NCBI RefSeq assembly: GCF_004339765.1
Contig: NZ_SMGO01000001.1
Coordinates: 682,001 to 746,000 of the forward strand
Origin: Albibacterium bauzanense
Lineage (GTDB): Bacteria > Bacteroidota > Bacteroidia > Sphingobacteriales > Sphingobacteriaceae
Direction of reading: 5' to 3'
Length of the DNA stretch: 64,000 nt
Shown: piece after piece, positions 48,907 to 54,399 of the stretch
Layout of the letters: the number at the start of each line of letters is the position of its first letter
Position numbering within the stretch: position 1 is the first letter of the stretch
The notes under the pieces: model-generated
Databases searched by the model: none
The model's input: only the letters and a program-made list of their open reading frames with translations
Told to the model about the DNA's origin: nothing
Position numbers and translations under genes: made by a program

Positions 48907-50109
48907 ATGCCTAAAATATCGCAGAAGGGCTATGATATGCCAGCATCTCCAATCCGCAAATTGACTCCTTATGCGGAATCAGCTAAACAAAAGGGAAAGA
49001 AAGTATATCATCTAAATATTGGGCAACCTGATATTGAAACGCCGAAGGGAATGATAGATGCTATAAAAAGCATAAACTTTAAAGTTTGGGCCTACACTCC
49101 CTCAGAAGGGATTCTCTCCTATCGTAATAAATTAGCTCAACATTATAACCGGATTAATTACAACATTACACCCAATGATATCCTGGTTACCAATGGTGCC
49201 TCAGAAGCGATCACCATTGCCATGCAAACCTGCTTAAACAGTGGCGATGAGATCATTATCCCTGAGCCTTTCTATGCCAACTACAGTGGATTCGCTTGTA
49301 TGGCTAACATTGTTGTTAAGCCTCTTTTATCGGTCATGAATGACAATTTCGCTCTTCCTTCCATTGCCGAATTTGAAAAAGTAATTACAGATAAAACAAA
49401 AGCTATCTTTATTTGCAATCCAAATAACCCAACAGGTTATTTATATTCTAAAGAAGAACTGGAATCGCTACGTGACCTCTGCCTGAAATATGATTTATTC
49501 CTCTTTTCAGATGAAGCATATCGTGAATTCTGTTATGATGATCGTGAGTTCATCTCACCTTTAAACTTATCAGGCTTTGATGATAATGTAGTGATCATAG
49601 ATAGTGTTTCAAAACGCTATAGTGCTTGCGGAGCACGTTTAGGCTGTTTAATCACTAAAAACAAGGCTATTTATAAAGCGGCTTTAAAATTTGCTCAAGC
49701 CCGCTTAAGCGCTCCTTTAGTTGCACAAATAGCTGGTGAAGCTGCCCTTGATACTCCTGACAGCTACTTCATTGAAGTTAAAAAAGAATACACTCAACGC
49801 AGAGACCTTCTTGCCAATGGATTAAATAAGATACCAGGCGTACGCTGTTCTGTTCCAGGTGGAGCATTCTATATTTTAGCAGAATTACCTGTTAATGATA
49901 CCGAGAAATTCTGTCAATGGATGCTAGAAGAATTCGATTATAACAATGAAACAGTTATGATGGCTCCTGCCTCAGGATTCTATAGTACCCCAGGTATGGG
50001 AAAAAATGAAGTAAGATTAGCTTATGTGATTAATCAAGACGACCTAAAAAAAGCCTTAATATGCTTAGAAAATGGTTTAATTGCTTATAATTCGTCTGCA
50101 AGAGACTAA
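48907..50109 (+). CDS. Aspartate aminotransferase-like PLP enzyme
   Basis: A 400-residue class I/II aminotransferase (fold type I). Signatures: YHLNIGQPDIETP, YTPSEGILSYRNKLA, TNGASEAI (PLP phosphate), ICNPNNPTGYLYSKEEL, and the PLP Lys in DSVSKRYSACGARLG (Lys236). The C-terminal domain holds CSVPGGAFYILAELP and VRLAYVI with the substrate-carboxylate Arg. The AspB-like subgroup suggests aspartate, tyrosine or similar substrates, which sequence cannot resolve. It stands alone between the DUF1573 terminator and the pst regulatory region. No T-run terminator follows, unless the inverted repeat at 50136 serves as one. Confidence 0.9.
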   Translation: MPKISQKGYDMPASPIRKLTPYAESAKQKGKKVYHLNIGQPDIETPKGMIDAIKSINFKVWAYTPSEGILSYRNKLAQHYNRINYNITPNDILVTNGASEAITIAMQTCLNSGDEIIIPEPFYANYSGFACMANIVVKPLLSVMNDNFALPSIAEFEKVITDKTKAIFICNPNNPTGYLYSKEELESLRDLCLKYDLFLFSDEAYREFCYDDREFISPLNLSGFDDNVVIIDSVSKRYSACGARLGCLITKNKAIYKAALKFAQARLSAPLVAQIAGEAALDTPDSYFIEVKKEYTQRRDLLANGLNKIPGVRCSVPGGAFYILAELPVNDTEKFCQWMLEEFDYNNETVMMAPASGFYSTPGMGKNEVRLAYVINQDDLKKALICLENGLIAYNSSARD

Positions 50110-50135
50110 TAATATTTAAAAATAAACTTATCTAC

Positions 50136-50171
50136 TATGGATATTGTTAACATTAAGTTAACATATCCATA
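50136..50171 (+). promoter_or_regulatory. Candidate Pho box/operator in front of pstS
   Basis: Two exact TTAACA hexamers at 50147-50152 and 50158-50163 lie 11 bp apart, with weaker copies in the same phase at 50169, 50180 and 50191 (the last is TTAATA). An 11-bp-period direct repeat of this type is the form of PhoB/PhoP binding sites known from other phyla. The hexamers are part of an inverted repeat with arms 50136-50151 and 50157-50171 (one bulged base). No T-run follows, so a terminator is less likely. It ends 23 bp upstream of the pstS -7 element, next to the -33 region. Confidence 0.55.
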
Positions 50172-50194
50172 ACCTATGGTATACATTACCTTAA

Positions 50195-50202
50195 TATCTT
50201 TG
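50195..50202 (+). promoter_or_regulatory. -7 element of the pst operon
   Basis: TATCTTTG followed by CA fits TAnnTTTG. It lies inside the longest pstS frame, so the start at 50230 is preferred, with a leader of about 20 nt. No -33 TTTG is seen at the expected distance, in keeping with an activator-dependent promoter, although other promoters here also lack it. Confidence 0.68.
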
Positions 50203-50229
50203 CACCATATTAAATCGTATTTCATACCT

Positions 50230-51213
50230 ATGTATAGATTTATTTCGCTGGCAACCTTGCTCGTAGTATTCTCATCATGCTTTAAGAGCTACGAAGGGAA
50301 AATTAATATTGATGGCTCCAGCACCGTTTACCCTTTAACGGAAGCTGTTTCAGAAGAGTTTCGCGAAATACGCCCACAAATACGGGTAACTGTTGGTGTT
50401 TCAGGAACAGGTGGAGGCTTTAAGAAATTCCTTAGAAACGAAATAGACATCAGCAACGCTTCTCGTCCAATAAGTAAAAGTGAAATTGAACTAAGCAAAC
50501 AAAACAACATTGGATTTATCGAAATTCCGGTATCTTATGATGGCTTAGCAGTAGTTGTAAGTCCAAAGAATACATTTGTTGACTACCTGACCGTTGAAGA
50601 GCTTCATAAAATGTGGTCGCCGGAAAGTCAGCGAAAAATTACCCGCTGGAATCAAATCCGTCCAGAATGGCCAGATGCACCATTGAACCTTTATGGCGCT
50701 GGTACATCCTCCGGTACTTATGATTATTTTACCGAAGCTATCAACGGAAAAGCTAAAGCTTCCAGAGGCGATTATACAGCCAGTGAAGACGATAACGTAT
50801 TAGTACAAGGCGTATCTACCGATGTAAATGGCTTAGCTTACTTTGGCTTAGCTTATTATACAGAAAATAAGGACAAACTAAAGCTCGTACCAATCAAGGT
50901 AGATCAAGAGAGTGAAGCAATTTATCCAACAGATGAAACCGTTAGAACAGGTACCTATCAACCTCTTGCGCGTCCTGAATTTATTTATATCAATGTAAAA
51001 TCTGCCGAAATACCTTATATTCAAGAGTATGTAAAATTCTATTTAGAGAATGCAGCAGCTTTAGCAGAAGAAATAGGTTCTGTGGCATTACCATCCGAGG
51101 TATATAAACTGTCTTATGAAAGATTTAAAAACCTAAGGACAGGTTCTATCTTTGAAAACAAATCAATTGTTGGGGCAAATCTCCTGAACTTATTACACGA
51201 AGACGCACAATAA
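50230..51213 (+). CDS. pstS: Phosphate ABC transporter substrate-binding lipoprotein PstS
   Basis: A 327-residue periplasmic phosphate-binding protein. The signal is MYRFISLATLLVVFSSCFKS with lipobox Cys17. Phosphate ligands are in INIDGSSTVYPLTEAVSEEF (Ser/Thr loop at about 25-45), GVSGTGGGFKKFLRNEIDIS with ASRPIS, and GAGTSSGTYDYFTE. Length fits the family. I chose the ATG at 50230, because the longer frame (50176) spans the promoter and adds residues before the signal. pstC follows after 4 bp. The upstream Pho-box-like repeat suggests induction by phosphate limitation. Confidence 0.95.
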   Translation: MYRFISLATLLVVFSSCFKSYEGKINIDGSSTVYPLTEAVSEEFREIRPQIRVTVGVSGTGGGFKKFLRNEIDISNASRPISKSEIELSKQNNIGFIEIPVSYDGLAVVVSPKNTFVDYLTVEELHKMWSPESQRKITRWNQIRPEWPDAPLNLYGAGTSSGTYDYFTEAINGKAKASRGDYTASEDDNVLVQGVSTDVNGLAYFGLAYYTENKDKLKLVPIKVDQESEAIYPTDETVRTGTYQPLARPEFIYINVKSAEIPYIQEYVKFYLENAAALAEEIGSVALPSEVYKLSYERFKNLRTGSIFENKSIVGANLLNLLHEDAQ

Positions 51214-51217
51214 AGGA

Positions 51218-52105
51218 ATGGCTAACTCATCTAGAAAATCCGAGAAACTTATTGAACTAATCATGATTGCATGCAGTCTGATCTCAGTTCTCACAACACT
51301 TGGTATCATTCTCGTCCTTTCCATCGATACCATAAAATTCTTTGCAGAGGTCTCTTTTTTCGATTTTATTACTGACACGCAATGGACACCCCTTTTTGCA
51401 GATAAGCATTTTGGAATCCTACCTCTGCTTGCCGGTACAATCTTAACAACTATAATTGCAACACTTGTTGCTGTACCTGTAGGGATTAGCATTGCCGTAT
51501 ATTTAAATGAATATGCATCCAAAAAATTCACGGCAACCGTAAAACCGATTCTGGAAATACTGGCTGCTATACCAACCGTTGTATATGGTTTCTTTGCTTT
51601 ACAATTCGTAACACCTCTTCTACAACTTTTAATACCCAGCTTATCTGGCTTTAACGCACTTTCACCGGGTATCGTTATGGGAATTATGATTATCCCTTAC
51701 ATTACTTCACTAAGTGAAGATGCTTTACGTGCAGTTCCAAAATCATTGAGAGAAGCTTCTTACGGGCTAGGAGCAAACAAACTTCAAACAGCCTTTAAAG
51801 TAATGGTTCCTGCTGCCAGTTCAGGTATCATCGTATCCATCATCCTGGCTATTTCAAGAGCTTTAGGCGAAACCATGATTGTAGCCATTGCTGCAGGTCA
51901 GCAACCAAACTTAACTCTCAACCCACTTAAATCAGTAGAAACTATTACAACATATATTGTACAGGTGAGTATGGGTGATGTACCGCAAGATTCTTTAGAG
52001 TACCGCACTATTTTCGCTGCCGGTATCACACTATTTGCATTCACCTTTATCCTCAATAATATCTCTTTCTGGATTCAAAAGAAATATCAAAACCGCTATG
52101 ACTAG
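51218..52105 (+). CDS. pstC: Phosphate ABC transporter permease PstC
   Basis: A 295-residue inner membrane permease with six hydrophobic segments, forming the phosphate channel with PstA. The signal-like first segment (LIELIMIACSLISVLTTLGI) and the ABC-permease EAA loop (SLREASYGLGANKLQTAFKV, about 187-206) are clear, as is SRALGETMIVAIAAGQQPN. The start is preceded by AAAGGA, a rare clear purine-rich ribosome binding site in this window. It is 4 bp behind pstS and overlaps pstA by 8 bp. Confidence 0.96.
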   Translation: MANSSRKSEKLIELIMIACSLISVLTTLGIILVLSIDTIKFFAEVSFFDFITDTQWTPLFADKHFGILPLLAGTILTTIIATLVAVPVGISIAVYLNEYASKKFTATVKPILEILAAIPTVVYGFFALQFVTPLLQLLIPSLSGFNALSPGIVMGIMIIPYITSLSEDALRAVPKSLREASYGLGANKLQTAFKVMVPAASSGIIVSIILAISRALGETMIVAIAAGQQPNLTLNPLKSVETITTYIVQVSMGDVPQDSLEYRTIFAAGITLFAFTFILNNISFWIQKKYQNRYD

Positions 52106-52961
52106 AAAGCCACTCTTCTCTATAAAGATGAAAGATAGAATCTTTCGGATATATGCTATTGCATGTACGGCGTTTGCTTTAATCATGTTAGCCGTTTTAT
52201 TAATCGATATAACCATTAAAGGAGCATCTCGTCTTGACTGGTCGTTCTTTACAAATTTACCATCCAGACACCCGGAAGAATCTGGCATTTATACTGCCCT
52301 GGCCGGAATGGTTGCCTTACTCCTCTTCACATTAATTGTTGCTTTGCCAATAGGCATTCTGGCAGGAATTTATCTACAAGAATATGGCACAAAGAACAGA
52401 CTTGCAAAATTCGTAGAAATCAATATATCCAACCTTGCCGGAGTTCCTTCAGTTATTTATGGTATCTTAGGCTTACAGGTGTTTGTACGTATGGCCGGAC
52501 TAGGAAACAGCATTCTTGCAGGGTCGCTGACTCTGTCTTTGCTAATCATGCCTATCATTATTGTATCAACCCGTGAAGCCATTAAAGCAGTGCCAGATTC
52601 CCTGCGTCAGGCGGCATTGGGACTAGGAGCTACAAAATGGCAAACCATCCGTCGAATAGTTTTACCAGCATCCTTTGGAGGAATCATGACAGGAATCATC
52701 CTCTCAACATCCAGAGCCATTGGTGAAACAGCTCCTTTGATTGTTGTAGGCGCATTGGCTTATGTACCTTTCATCCCAGAAGGTCCGTTAGACCAATATA
52801 CTTCTCTGCCAATTCAAATCTTTAACTGGACATCCAGACCGCAACAGGGATTCATTATAAATGCTGCTGCTGGAATTATTGTGTTATTATTATTTACATT
52901 TATATTAAATGGGATCGCTATCTATTTAAGGAACAAATGGTACAAAAAAACAAATCTGTAA
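52098..52961 (+). CDS. pstA: Phosphate ABC transporter permease PstA
   Basis: A 287-residue inner membrane permease with six hydrophobic segments, partner of PstC. The EAA loop [20 protein letters not shown] (about 173-192) and [20 protein letters not shown] are typical. I chose the ATG at 52098, which overlaps the pstC stop by 8 bp, giving the N-terminus [20 protein letters not shown]. The longer frame to 52035 would overlap pstC by 71 bp. An ATG at 52128 is also possible. pstB begins inside its last 25 bp. Confidence 0.93.
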
Positions 52962-53728
52962 AAGAACTCAACCCGGAATATAAGCTGGAAAGCAGAAATT
53001 TAAATCTGTTTTACGGCCAGAAACAAGCTTTAAGAGATGTTTCAATCAAAATGTCAGCAAATACTGTTACTGCATTCATTGGTCCATCCGGTTGTGGAAA
53101 ATCTACTTTTTTACGCTGTTTCAATCGGATGAACGACCTGATTGAAGGCGTTAAGATCGATGGGGATGTATTGATCGACAATGTAGATATCTACAAAAAT
53201 GAAATCGATGTATACGAGTATCGCAAAAAGGTAGGGATGGTTTTCCAAAAACCCAACCCCTTTCCAAAATCCATATTTGAAAATGTTGCCTTCGGCTTGC
53301 GGATTAATGGTGAAAAGTCCAAATCTTATATAGAAGATACTGTTGAGTATGCTTTGAAACAAGCCGCTTTATGGGAAGAAGTAAAAGACAGTCTTCATAA
53401 ATCAGCCATAGCAATATCTGGTGGGCAGCAACAGCGTCTTTGTATTGCCCGTGCCATTGCTGTTAAGCCGTCCATTCTACTAATGGATGAACCGGCATCT
53501 GCTTTAGACCCGCTATCTACTACCAAAATCGAGGAGCTTATCCATACGTTAAAAGATAATTATACCATCGTAATTGTTACTCATAATATGCAGCAAGCAG
53601 CTCGGATTAGCGATAAAACTGCGTATTTTTATATGGGCGAATTGATCGAGTATGATTTAACTGAGAAGATATTTACAAATCCTTCAAGAATAGAAACTGA
53701 AAACTACATTACCGGCCGATTCGGTTAA
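52937..53728 (+). CDS. pstB: Phosphate ABC transporter ATPase PstB
   Basis: A 263-residue cytoplasmic ABC ATPase that powers PstSCA uptake. Walker [21 protein letters not shown] (about 54-73) is followed by the PstB-specific [15 protein letters not shown]. The Q-loop region is [21 protein letters not shown], the signature [17 protein letters not shown] (about 155-171), Walker [15 protein letters not shown] and H-loop [13 protein letters not shown]. The start overlaps the pstA end by 25 bp, consistent with translational coupling. Length is normal. Confidence 0.97.
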
Positions 53729-53745
53729 TCCAGAACTATAAGATT

Positions 53746-54399
53746 ATGATACATTTAGATAGAGAACTTGAGCAATTGAAAAAGAGCACCACAGCCATGT
53801 GGGTCTTAGTACAATCTCAAATAGAGAAGGCATATAAAGCTTTAGCAGCAAATGATAAAGACCTGGCAAGGGAAGTAATAGCCAATGAGAAACGCGTCAA
53901 TTCTATGGAGCTAAAAATCGATAGTGATTGTGAAGATCTTTTCGCTTTATATAGTCCCGTAGCCAGCGATTTACGTACTGTTCTTGCAACCTTAAAAATC
54001 AATACTAATCTGGAGCGCATCGGAGACCTTGCTGAAGGTATCTGTAAACATATACTCAGTGAAGAGAAAGCCTTTGATAAAGAACTTTTAAAAGCTTCCG
54101 AAATTCAGGAGATGTATGATGTTGTTATTGAAATTATGAAGGATGTTCTTAAAGCTTATATTAAAGAAGACACGAAATTAGCTCGTACAATCTTCAAAAA
54201 AGATGAGATTTTAAATGAAATCAATATGCAGGCAACCAAAAATATAACAGAATACATTGGTTCAGACATCTCAAAGATTGAAGCCGGATTGAATTTCTTA
54301 TCCATTATAAGAAAACTTGAACGCGTAGGCGATCAAATTACAAACATCGCAGAAGAAATTATCTTCTCACACGAAGCTAAAGTGCTAAAGCATCTTTAG
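53746..54399 (+). CDS. phoU: Phosphate transport system regulator PhoU
   Basis: A 217-residue all-helical cytoplasmic protein with two PhoU repeats (about 10-100 and 115-205). The metal-binding helices show the E/D-rich motif pairs VASDLRTVLATLKINTNLER with IGDLAEGICKH, and FLSIIRKLERVGDQITNIAE. PhoU links the Pst transporter to the PhoR kinase and restrains uptake and the Pho response. It ends the pst operon, 17 bp behind pstB, before a bidirectional terminator. No phoB/phoR genes are adjacent. Confidence 0.96.
   Translation: MIHLDRELEQLKKSTTAMWVLVQSQIEKAYKALAANDKDLAREVIANEKRVNSMELKIDSDCEDLFALYSPVASDLRTVLATLKINTNLERIGDLAEGICKHILSEEKAFDKELLKASEIQEMYDVVIEIMKDVLKAYIKEDTKLARTIFKKDEILNEINMQATKNITEYIGSDISKIEAGLNFLSIIRKLERVGDQITNIAEEIIFSHEAKVLKHL

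Follow-up and report, generated by a model that had tools for sequence, protein, structure and literature searches.

Upstream of the pst operon of Albibacterium bauzanense lies an array of TTAACA-like direct repeats which, with a probability that we put at roughly 80%, is a Pho box from which a PhoB-like regulator of the OmpR family would activate pst at low phosphate. On sequence grounds its structure, its recurrence and its position all mark it as a Pho box, and the Bacteroidota consensus is predicted to be tandem TTAAC(A)-N5. The repeats follow one another every 11 bp, recur before phosphate genes and keep a fixed helical register to the -7 promoter element. Since they recur at fixed spacing before the phosphate genes of relatives, the array is very probably the docking site of a regulator that responds to phosphate shortage.

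In the window, i.e. the whole stretch of 64,000 nucleotides that was analysed, the array lies on the forward strand. Checking of the letters confirmed what the original prediction had read there: TTAACA is exact (6/6) at 50147–50152 and 50158–50163 (units 1 and 2) and returns imperfectly as ATAACC at 50169–50174 (unit 3, 4/6), TATACA at 50180–50185 (unit 4, 4/6) and TTAATA at 50191–50196 (unit 5, 5/6). Unit 3 is degenerate in A. bauzanense, while in the aligned pstS upstream regions its position reads TTAAC or TTAAT in 12 of 18 relatives; the weak unit 4 sits where, presumably, a -33 element would be expected. The -7 element of Bacteroidota promoters has the consensus TAnnTTTG. It is matched by TATCTTTG at 50195–50202 (forward strand), which overlaps unit 5 and starts 48 nt past the first base of unit 1. 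Over the five-unit register 25 of 30 letters fit, a value reached in none of 4000 shuffles of the 120-nt intergenic region, and dinucleotide shuffling of the same region produced the exact TTAACA-N5-TTAACA pair in 4 trials out of 20000.

The genes behind the array, all on the forward strand, encode the phosphate-binding protein PstS (50230–51213; PF12849, E 2.9e-33, with a lipoprotein-like signal by eye), a PstC-type permease (51218–52105; PF00528), a PstA-type permease (longest ORF 52035–52961, inside which the true start probably lies; PF00528), the PstB ATPase (52937–53728; PF00005) and PhoU (53746–54399; PF01895). The start of pstS was taken to be the ATG at 50230; an alternative upstream ATG in the list of open reading frames, at 50176, falls within the repeat array. 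A second PstS-like protein (L002, L315; G000:C2) is encoded, by eye, among ExbB/ExbD/TonB-type genes, and ahead of the first gene seen in that operon no core exceeds 10/12. In Bacteroides fragilis, the genes listed as PhoB-dependent include those for a phosphate-binding component and for a protein of ExbB type (PMC3547664, Table 2).

A search of 151 family genomes with PstS gave matches in 63 and a close relative (at least 54 percent identity; loci L033–L052) in 20; with one broken gene (L052) dropped, the pstS set comprises 19 loci, own genome included. Defining the core as at least 11 of the 12 letters of TTAAYR-N5-TTAAYR, we found it upstream of pstS in 17 of the 19 members, the two without it being L035 and L036. 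Pairs of TTAAY stand at distance 11 in 17 and at distance 22 in 14 of these upstream regions, and every remaining distance from 6 to 40 occurs in at most 6 of 19. In the genome of the same genus the pstS upstream region reads TTAACATTAAATTAACATTGGTTTAAC. Seven Bacteroidota pstS loci from outside the family score 9–13/15 for three TTAAC units; relatives outside Bacteroidota (11 of 12 loci, L069 omitted) score 6–10/15.

The genome of A. bauzanense encodes nine OmpR-family regulators, and one of them, G000:C1:813684-814370 (229 aa; PF00072 and PF00486, i.e. receiver plus Trans_reg_C), is the only one with PhoB as its best NCBIfam model; its two highest matches are both PhoB models. It scores 224.7 bits against the PhoB model, compared with 177.6 for the best of the other eight, and stays under both PhoB equivalog cut-offs (224.7 versus 296.2 bits for TIGR02154, 220.3 versus 270 for NF053854). 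Its gene carries the repeat upstream. Among the 30 best-scoring loci of this phoB-like gene the core is present upstream in all 30, and TTAAY-TTAAY at distance 11 in 28, as in TTAACAATTTG TTAATATTGGC TTAAC, so that self-control is the natural reading. By eye, there is no sensor kinase gene beside the regulator within 7 kb.

Two further phosphate loci carry the box. The core lies upstream of ppk in 28 of the 30 best loci (24 at 12/12, 4 at 11/12; 56 of 61 genomes searched had a match), and in A. bauzanense TTAATATTAGCTTAATA lies 74 bp upstream of the ppk ATG. A search of 20 genomes yielded 17 loci with full-length PHO4; the core precedes the DUF47-Pit operon in 16 of them, with the -7 element at +26 in 15. 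Full-length PHO4 (Pit) was found in 17 of the 18 other genomes searched and had no match in A. bauzanense (G000) or its congener (G017), though both have pst; in A. bauzanense the search found no more than a 751-aa frame (L218) that distantly resembles PHO4. The recurrence that the original prediction proposed to look for, before other phosphate genes and the pst operons of relatives, was thus found at pstS, the phoB-like gene, ppk and the DUF47-Pit operon, the first three of them in A. bauzanense itself, and lends support to the Pho-box reading of the 11-bp repeats. These target sets are homologous promoters, akin by descent, and patterns were picked with some sites already known; for comparison, 12 of 217 other upstream regions from the homology-fetched loci reach the core score (3 at 12/12, 9 at 11/12). 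Upstream windows were 200 nt for these regions and for the phoB-like, pit and ppk sets, and about 330 nt for pstS.

Genome-wide searches separate strict from loose forms of the repeat. The three-unit pattern TTAACRNNNNNTTAAYRNNNNNTTAAC, which was composed once some matched sites were known, gave 129 matches with at most one mismatch in 30 genomes, versus 44 for the reversed pattern. Its 25 exact matches include 17 that end 44–50 bp before a phoB-like gene and 4 before pstS; the other 4 are elsewhere. Exact TTAACA-N5-TTAACA occurs four times in the 3.08 Mb of the A. bauzanense genome, which corresponds to roughly 1.3e-4 for each directed upstream region of 200 bp, and behind the three sites other than pstS (L004, L005, L006) no known phosphate gene was seen by eye. 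At one of these, L006 (identical with L299, G000:C4:27431-27449), a DUF2490 gene follows 31 bp after an exact TTAACATTAAATTAACATT, and the congener has TTAACATACAGTTAACTATTTGATAACA (L091) near apparent counterparts of the genes at that locus. In A. bauzanense the TTAACA pair with one mismatch is found 74 times versus 55 for the reversed control, two exact TTAAYR units 51 versus 38 times (36 versus 16 in the congener), and three TTAACA units with at most three mismatches 21 versus 21 times (27 versus 20 in the congener); hardly any enrichment is seen there, hence most loose matches in this genome are background. Within the window, the pair with up to two mismatches is not enriched either (23 found, 17.7 expected).

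A position relative to the promoter was found as well. Wherever a core is followed by TAnnTTWG 17–62 nt downstream (9 pstS, 16 phoB-like, 15 pit and 12 phylum-wide promoters, with the pit promoter L207, identical with L300 of G021, counted in two sets), we took the offset between the two. In 47 of these 52 promoters, which share descent and so testify to conservation rather than to 52 independent events, the -7 element starts 11n+4 nt (n = 2–5) past a repeat. The offset equals 4 modulo 11 in all 9 pstS, all 16 phoB-like and all 15 pit promoters (40/40 in the family) and in 7 of the 12 phylum-wide ones, the other five being outside the register. For pstS and the phoB-like gene the values themselves are 48 and 37, with a single 59 for pstS; for pit the value is 26, and +26 is also seen at two TonB-receptor promoters (L306, L310). 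The fixed distance known from the PHO box is therefore present, ppk excepted: none of its 28 core-bearing promoters has TAnnTTWG 17–62 nt downstream.

The box seems, from its sequence, to reach beyond Sphingobacteriaceae. Exact TTAACATT-N3-TTAACATT was found at 35 places in 32 of 296 genomes, versus 9 for the reversed pattern, and 29 of the 30 places fetched are intergenic. By eye, a DUF47-type gene follows at five of these places, four of them in the family and one outside it. TonB-receptor-type genes, each of which encodes both Plug and CarboxypepD-like domains, follow at six places, and genes matching Porin_O_P at three, where one match is below cut-off; all places of these two kinds are in genomes from outside the family. 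The remaining 16 places have other genes or none downstream.

Arrays also adjoin genes of other kinds. In 6 of 20 stretches examined a porin-like gene has an array next to its start, running along the gene in L183, L187, L188 and L189 and matched on the opposite strand in L190 and L191; of three proteins tested, those of L183 and L190 match Porin_O_P and that of L188 does not. The Porin_O_P gene of A. bauzanense (L323) has a best core of 10/12. Among 11 porin matches fetched with 350-nt windows, three reach 11/12 and one 12/12 (L324 of G047); the last has its -7 element at +48 and is immediately followed by pstS, in the manner of a joint porin and pst operon. In four genomes of three genera (L185, L186, L198, L199) an array adjoins the start of a TonB-receptor-type gene whose two neighbours are, by eye, the same each time; in L185 and L186 the match is on the other strand than the gene. 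Four-unit arrays in L161 and L162 adjoin, and are oriented away from, the starts of genes for secreted-looking proteins that are similar by eye and have no Pfam match. Three-unit arrays with one mismatch lie in two genera between nadB- and nadA-like genes, as judged by eye (L193, L197).

The binder, its control by phosphorylation and the activation of pst we infer. The head-to-tail TTAAC(A)-N5 units, spaced at 11 bp, would be bound in tandem on one face of the DNA by a PhoB-like OmpR-family regulator, most likely the product of G000:C1:813684-814370, whose own gene bears the same box. Under phosphate shortage the phosphorylated form of this protein would fill units 1 and 2 and then the weaker units 3 and 4; it would thereby cover the -33 place and help RNA polymerase to use TATCTTTG, so that pstSCAB-phoU would be switched on.

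It may be, though we consider it unlikely, that a PhoB-like protein does bind the box and is a general regulator (of envelope, redox or growth) that represses or tunes pst rather than a starvation activator. The regulator was found in 149 of 151 family genomes and close pstS, patchy in its distribution, in 20, so the former may rule more than phosphate; core sites across the phylum also precede TonB receptors. Activation itself is put in doubt by Riemerella, where deletion of phoPR raised pstS mRNA 8-fold according to the accessible part of one report (PMC5399024). PhoP of Riemerella gave 583 DAP-seq peaks according to that of another (PMC9603813). Against this, the most specific sites in the family are those of pstS and of the regulator's own gene, together with ppk and pit, and the Riemerella regulator is only a possible orthologue of the one described here. 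Moreover, pst, ppk, porin O and the phosphate permease BF3715 of B. fragilis need PhoB, and pst expression is lost in the mutants, as stated in the accessible part of that study (PMC3547664). The sign of control over pstS is thus divided among Bacteroidota mutants, down in B. fragilis without phoB and up in Riemerella without phoPR.

Far less probable is that a dimeric repressor has its operator in the palindrome TGTTAAC-N5-GTTAACA, where the self-complementary GTTAAC would yield the direct repeat as a by-product. The 15/16-bp inverted repeat noted in the original prediction is real: it is gapped, spans units 1 and 2 at 50136–50171 (no strand assigned), has arms of 16 and 15 nt (50136–50151 and 50157–50171) with one bulged base, and as RNA folds into a strong hairpin (z -4.7). 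The congener, however, lacks its arms, and so do nearly all orthologues (the ungapped arm is 0 at all listed orthologue core sites except L033, with 7, and L044, with 5), while the orthologous promoters keep the 11-bp direct repeat and, in 14 of 19 cases, have a further TTAAY 22 bp on, which largely refutes such an operator. CTATGG likewise occurs on both sides in the window (50135 and 50174), as had been noted, and does not flank the site of the congener. An intrinsic terminator at the array was considered and rejected, as no terminator-like site was called in 49900–50400; Rfam matched nothing in the window but a tRNA, away from the array. That the repeats arose by chance in AT-rich promoter DNA has a negligible probability, for despite the high background of loose patterns it is refuted by recurrence and spacing.

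If the array is a Pho box, the register invites a tentative and rather doubtful idea of a single Bacteroidota phosphate operator, whose distance to the -7 element in whole 11-bp turns would set the outcome. A first unit at four turns plus 4 nt (pst, phoB-like gene) would activate and one at two turns plus 4 nt (DUF47-Pit) would block, so that low phosphate would swap low-affinity for high-affinity uptake. Evidence on the sign of pit control points both ways: in Sinorhizobium meliloti orfA-pit is repressed under phosphate starvation (PMC3131613, accessible part), yet BF3715 needs PhoB and TonB-receptor promoters share the +26 spacing.

Descriptions of such a box are scarce. Among the titles and abstract openings listed from the open literature we found no Bacteroidota Pho-box sequence besides that of Riemerella PhoP; one may be given in the supplement of PMC4796936, the accessible part of which reports Pho boxes that were predicted close to plcP in marine bacteria, with a flavobacterium among the isolates. 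Term searches of the texts of PMC3547664, PMC9603813 (which gives the TTTAACA motif) and PMC8115612 showed no 11-bp tandem box. The first mentions a Pho box once and never 'consensus', 'binding site' or 'direct repeat'; in the second neither 'Pho box' nor 'direct repeat' occurs, and in the third, on Flavobacterium johnsoniae, neither 'promoter' nor 'motif'.

A consensus and a promoter rule for the Bacteroidota Pho box could be searched across a large phylum with measured Pho regulons in B. fragilis and F. johnsoniae, making regulon prediction from sequence possible. The pair of pst and pit would be a clean case for distance-dependent control.

PhoP sites of Bacillus subtilis are repeats of TT(A/T/C)ACA. 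The array resembles them in its TTAACA half-site and its 11-bp period and in having several units in tandem ahead of the promoter, and differs in phylum and in the type of sigma-factor promoter, with no sign that the sites share descent. Closer in phylogeny is the OmpR-type PhoP of Riemerella anatipestifer, also of Bacteroidota, which binds a motif with TTTAACA as its most conserved letters and has a site before its own operon; unlike our box, that motif is likened to the one of ArcA in the accessible part of its paper (PMC9603813). The PhoB regulon of B. fragilis overlaps the targets of the box in pst, ppk, a porin and a phosphate permease. The PHO box of Escherichia coli consists, according to the accessible part of PMC4415409, of two 11-nt direct repeats (seven conserved and four looser bases) to which the regulator binds head to tail, and 11-nt direct repeats are what we found at the pstS site. 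The conserved motif is CTGTCAT in E. coli and TTAAC(A) in the Bacteroidota box, the half-site before pstS of A. bauzanense being TTAACA and not of the CTGTCAT type; the Bacteroidota box further differs in its frequent third unit and in the TAnnTTTG -7 element that follows at 11n+4.
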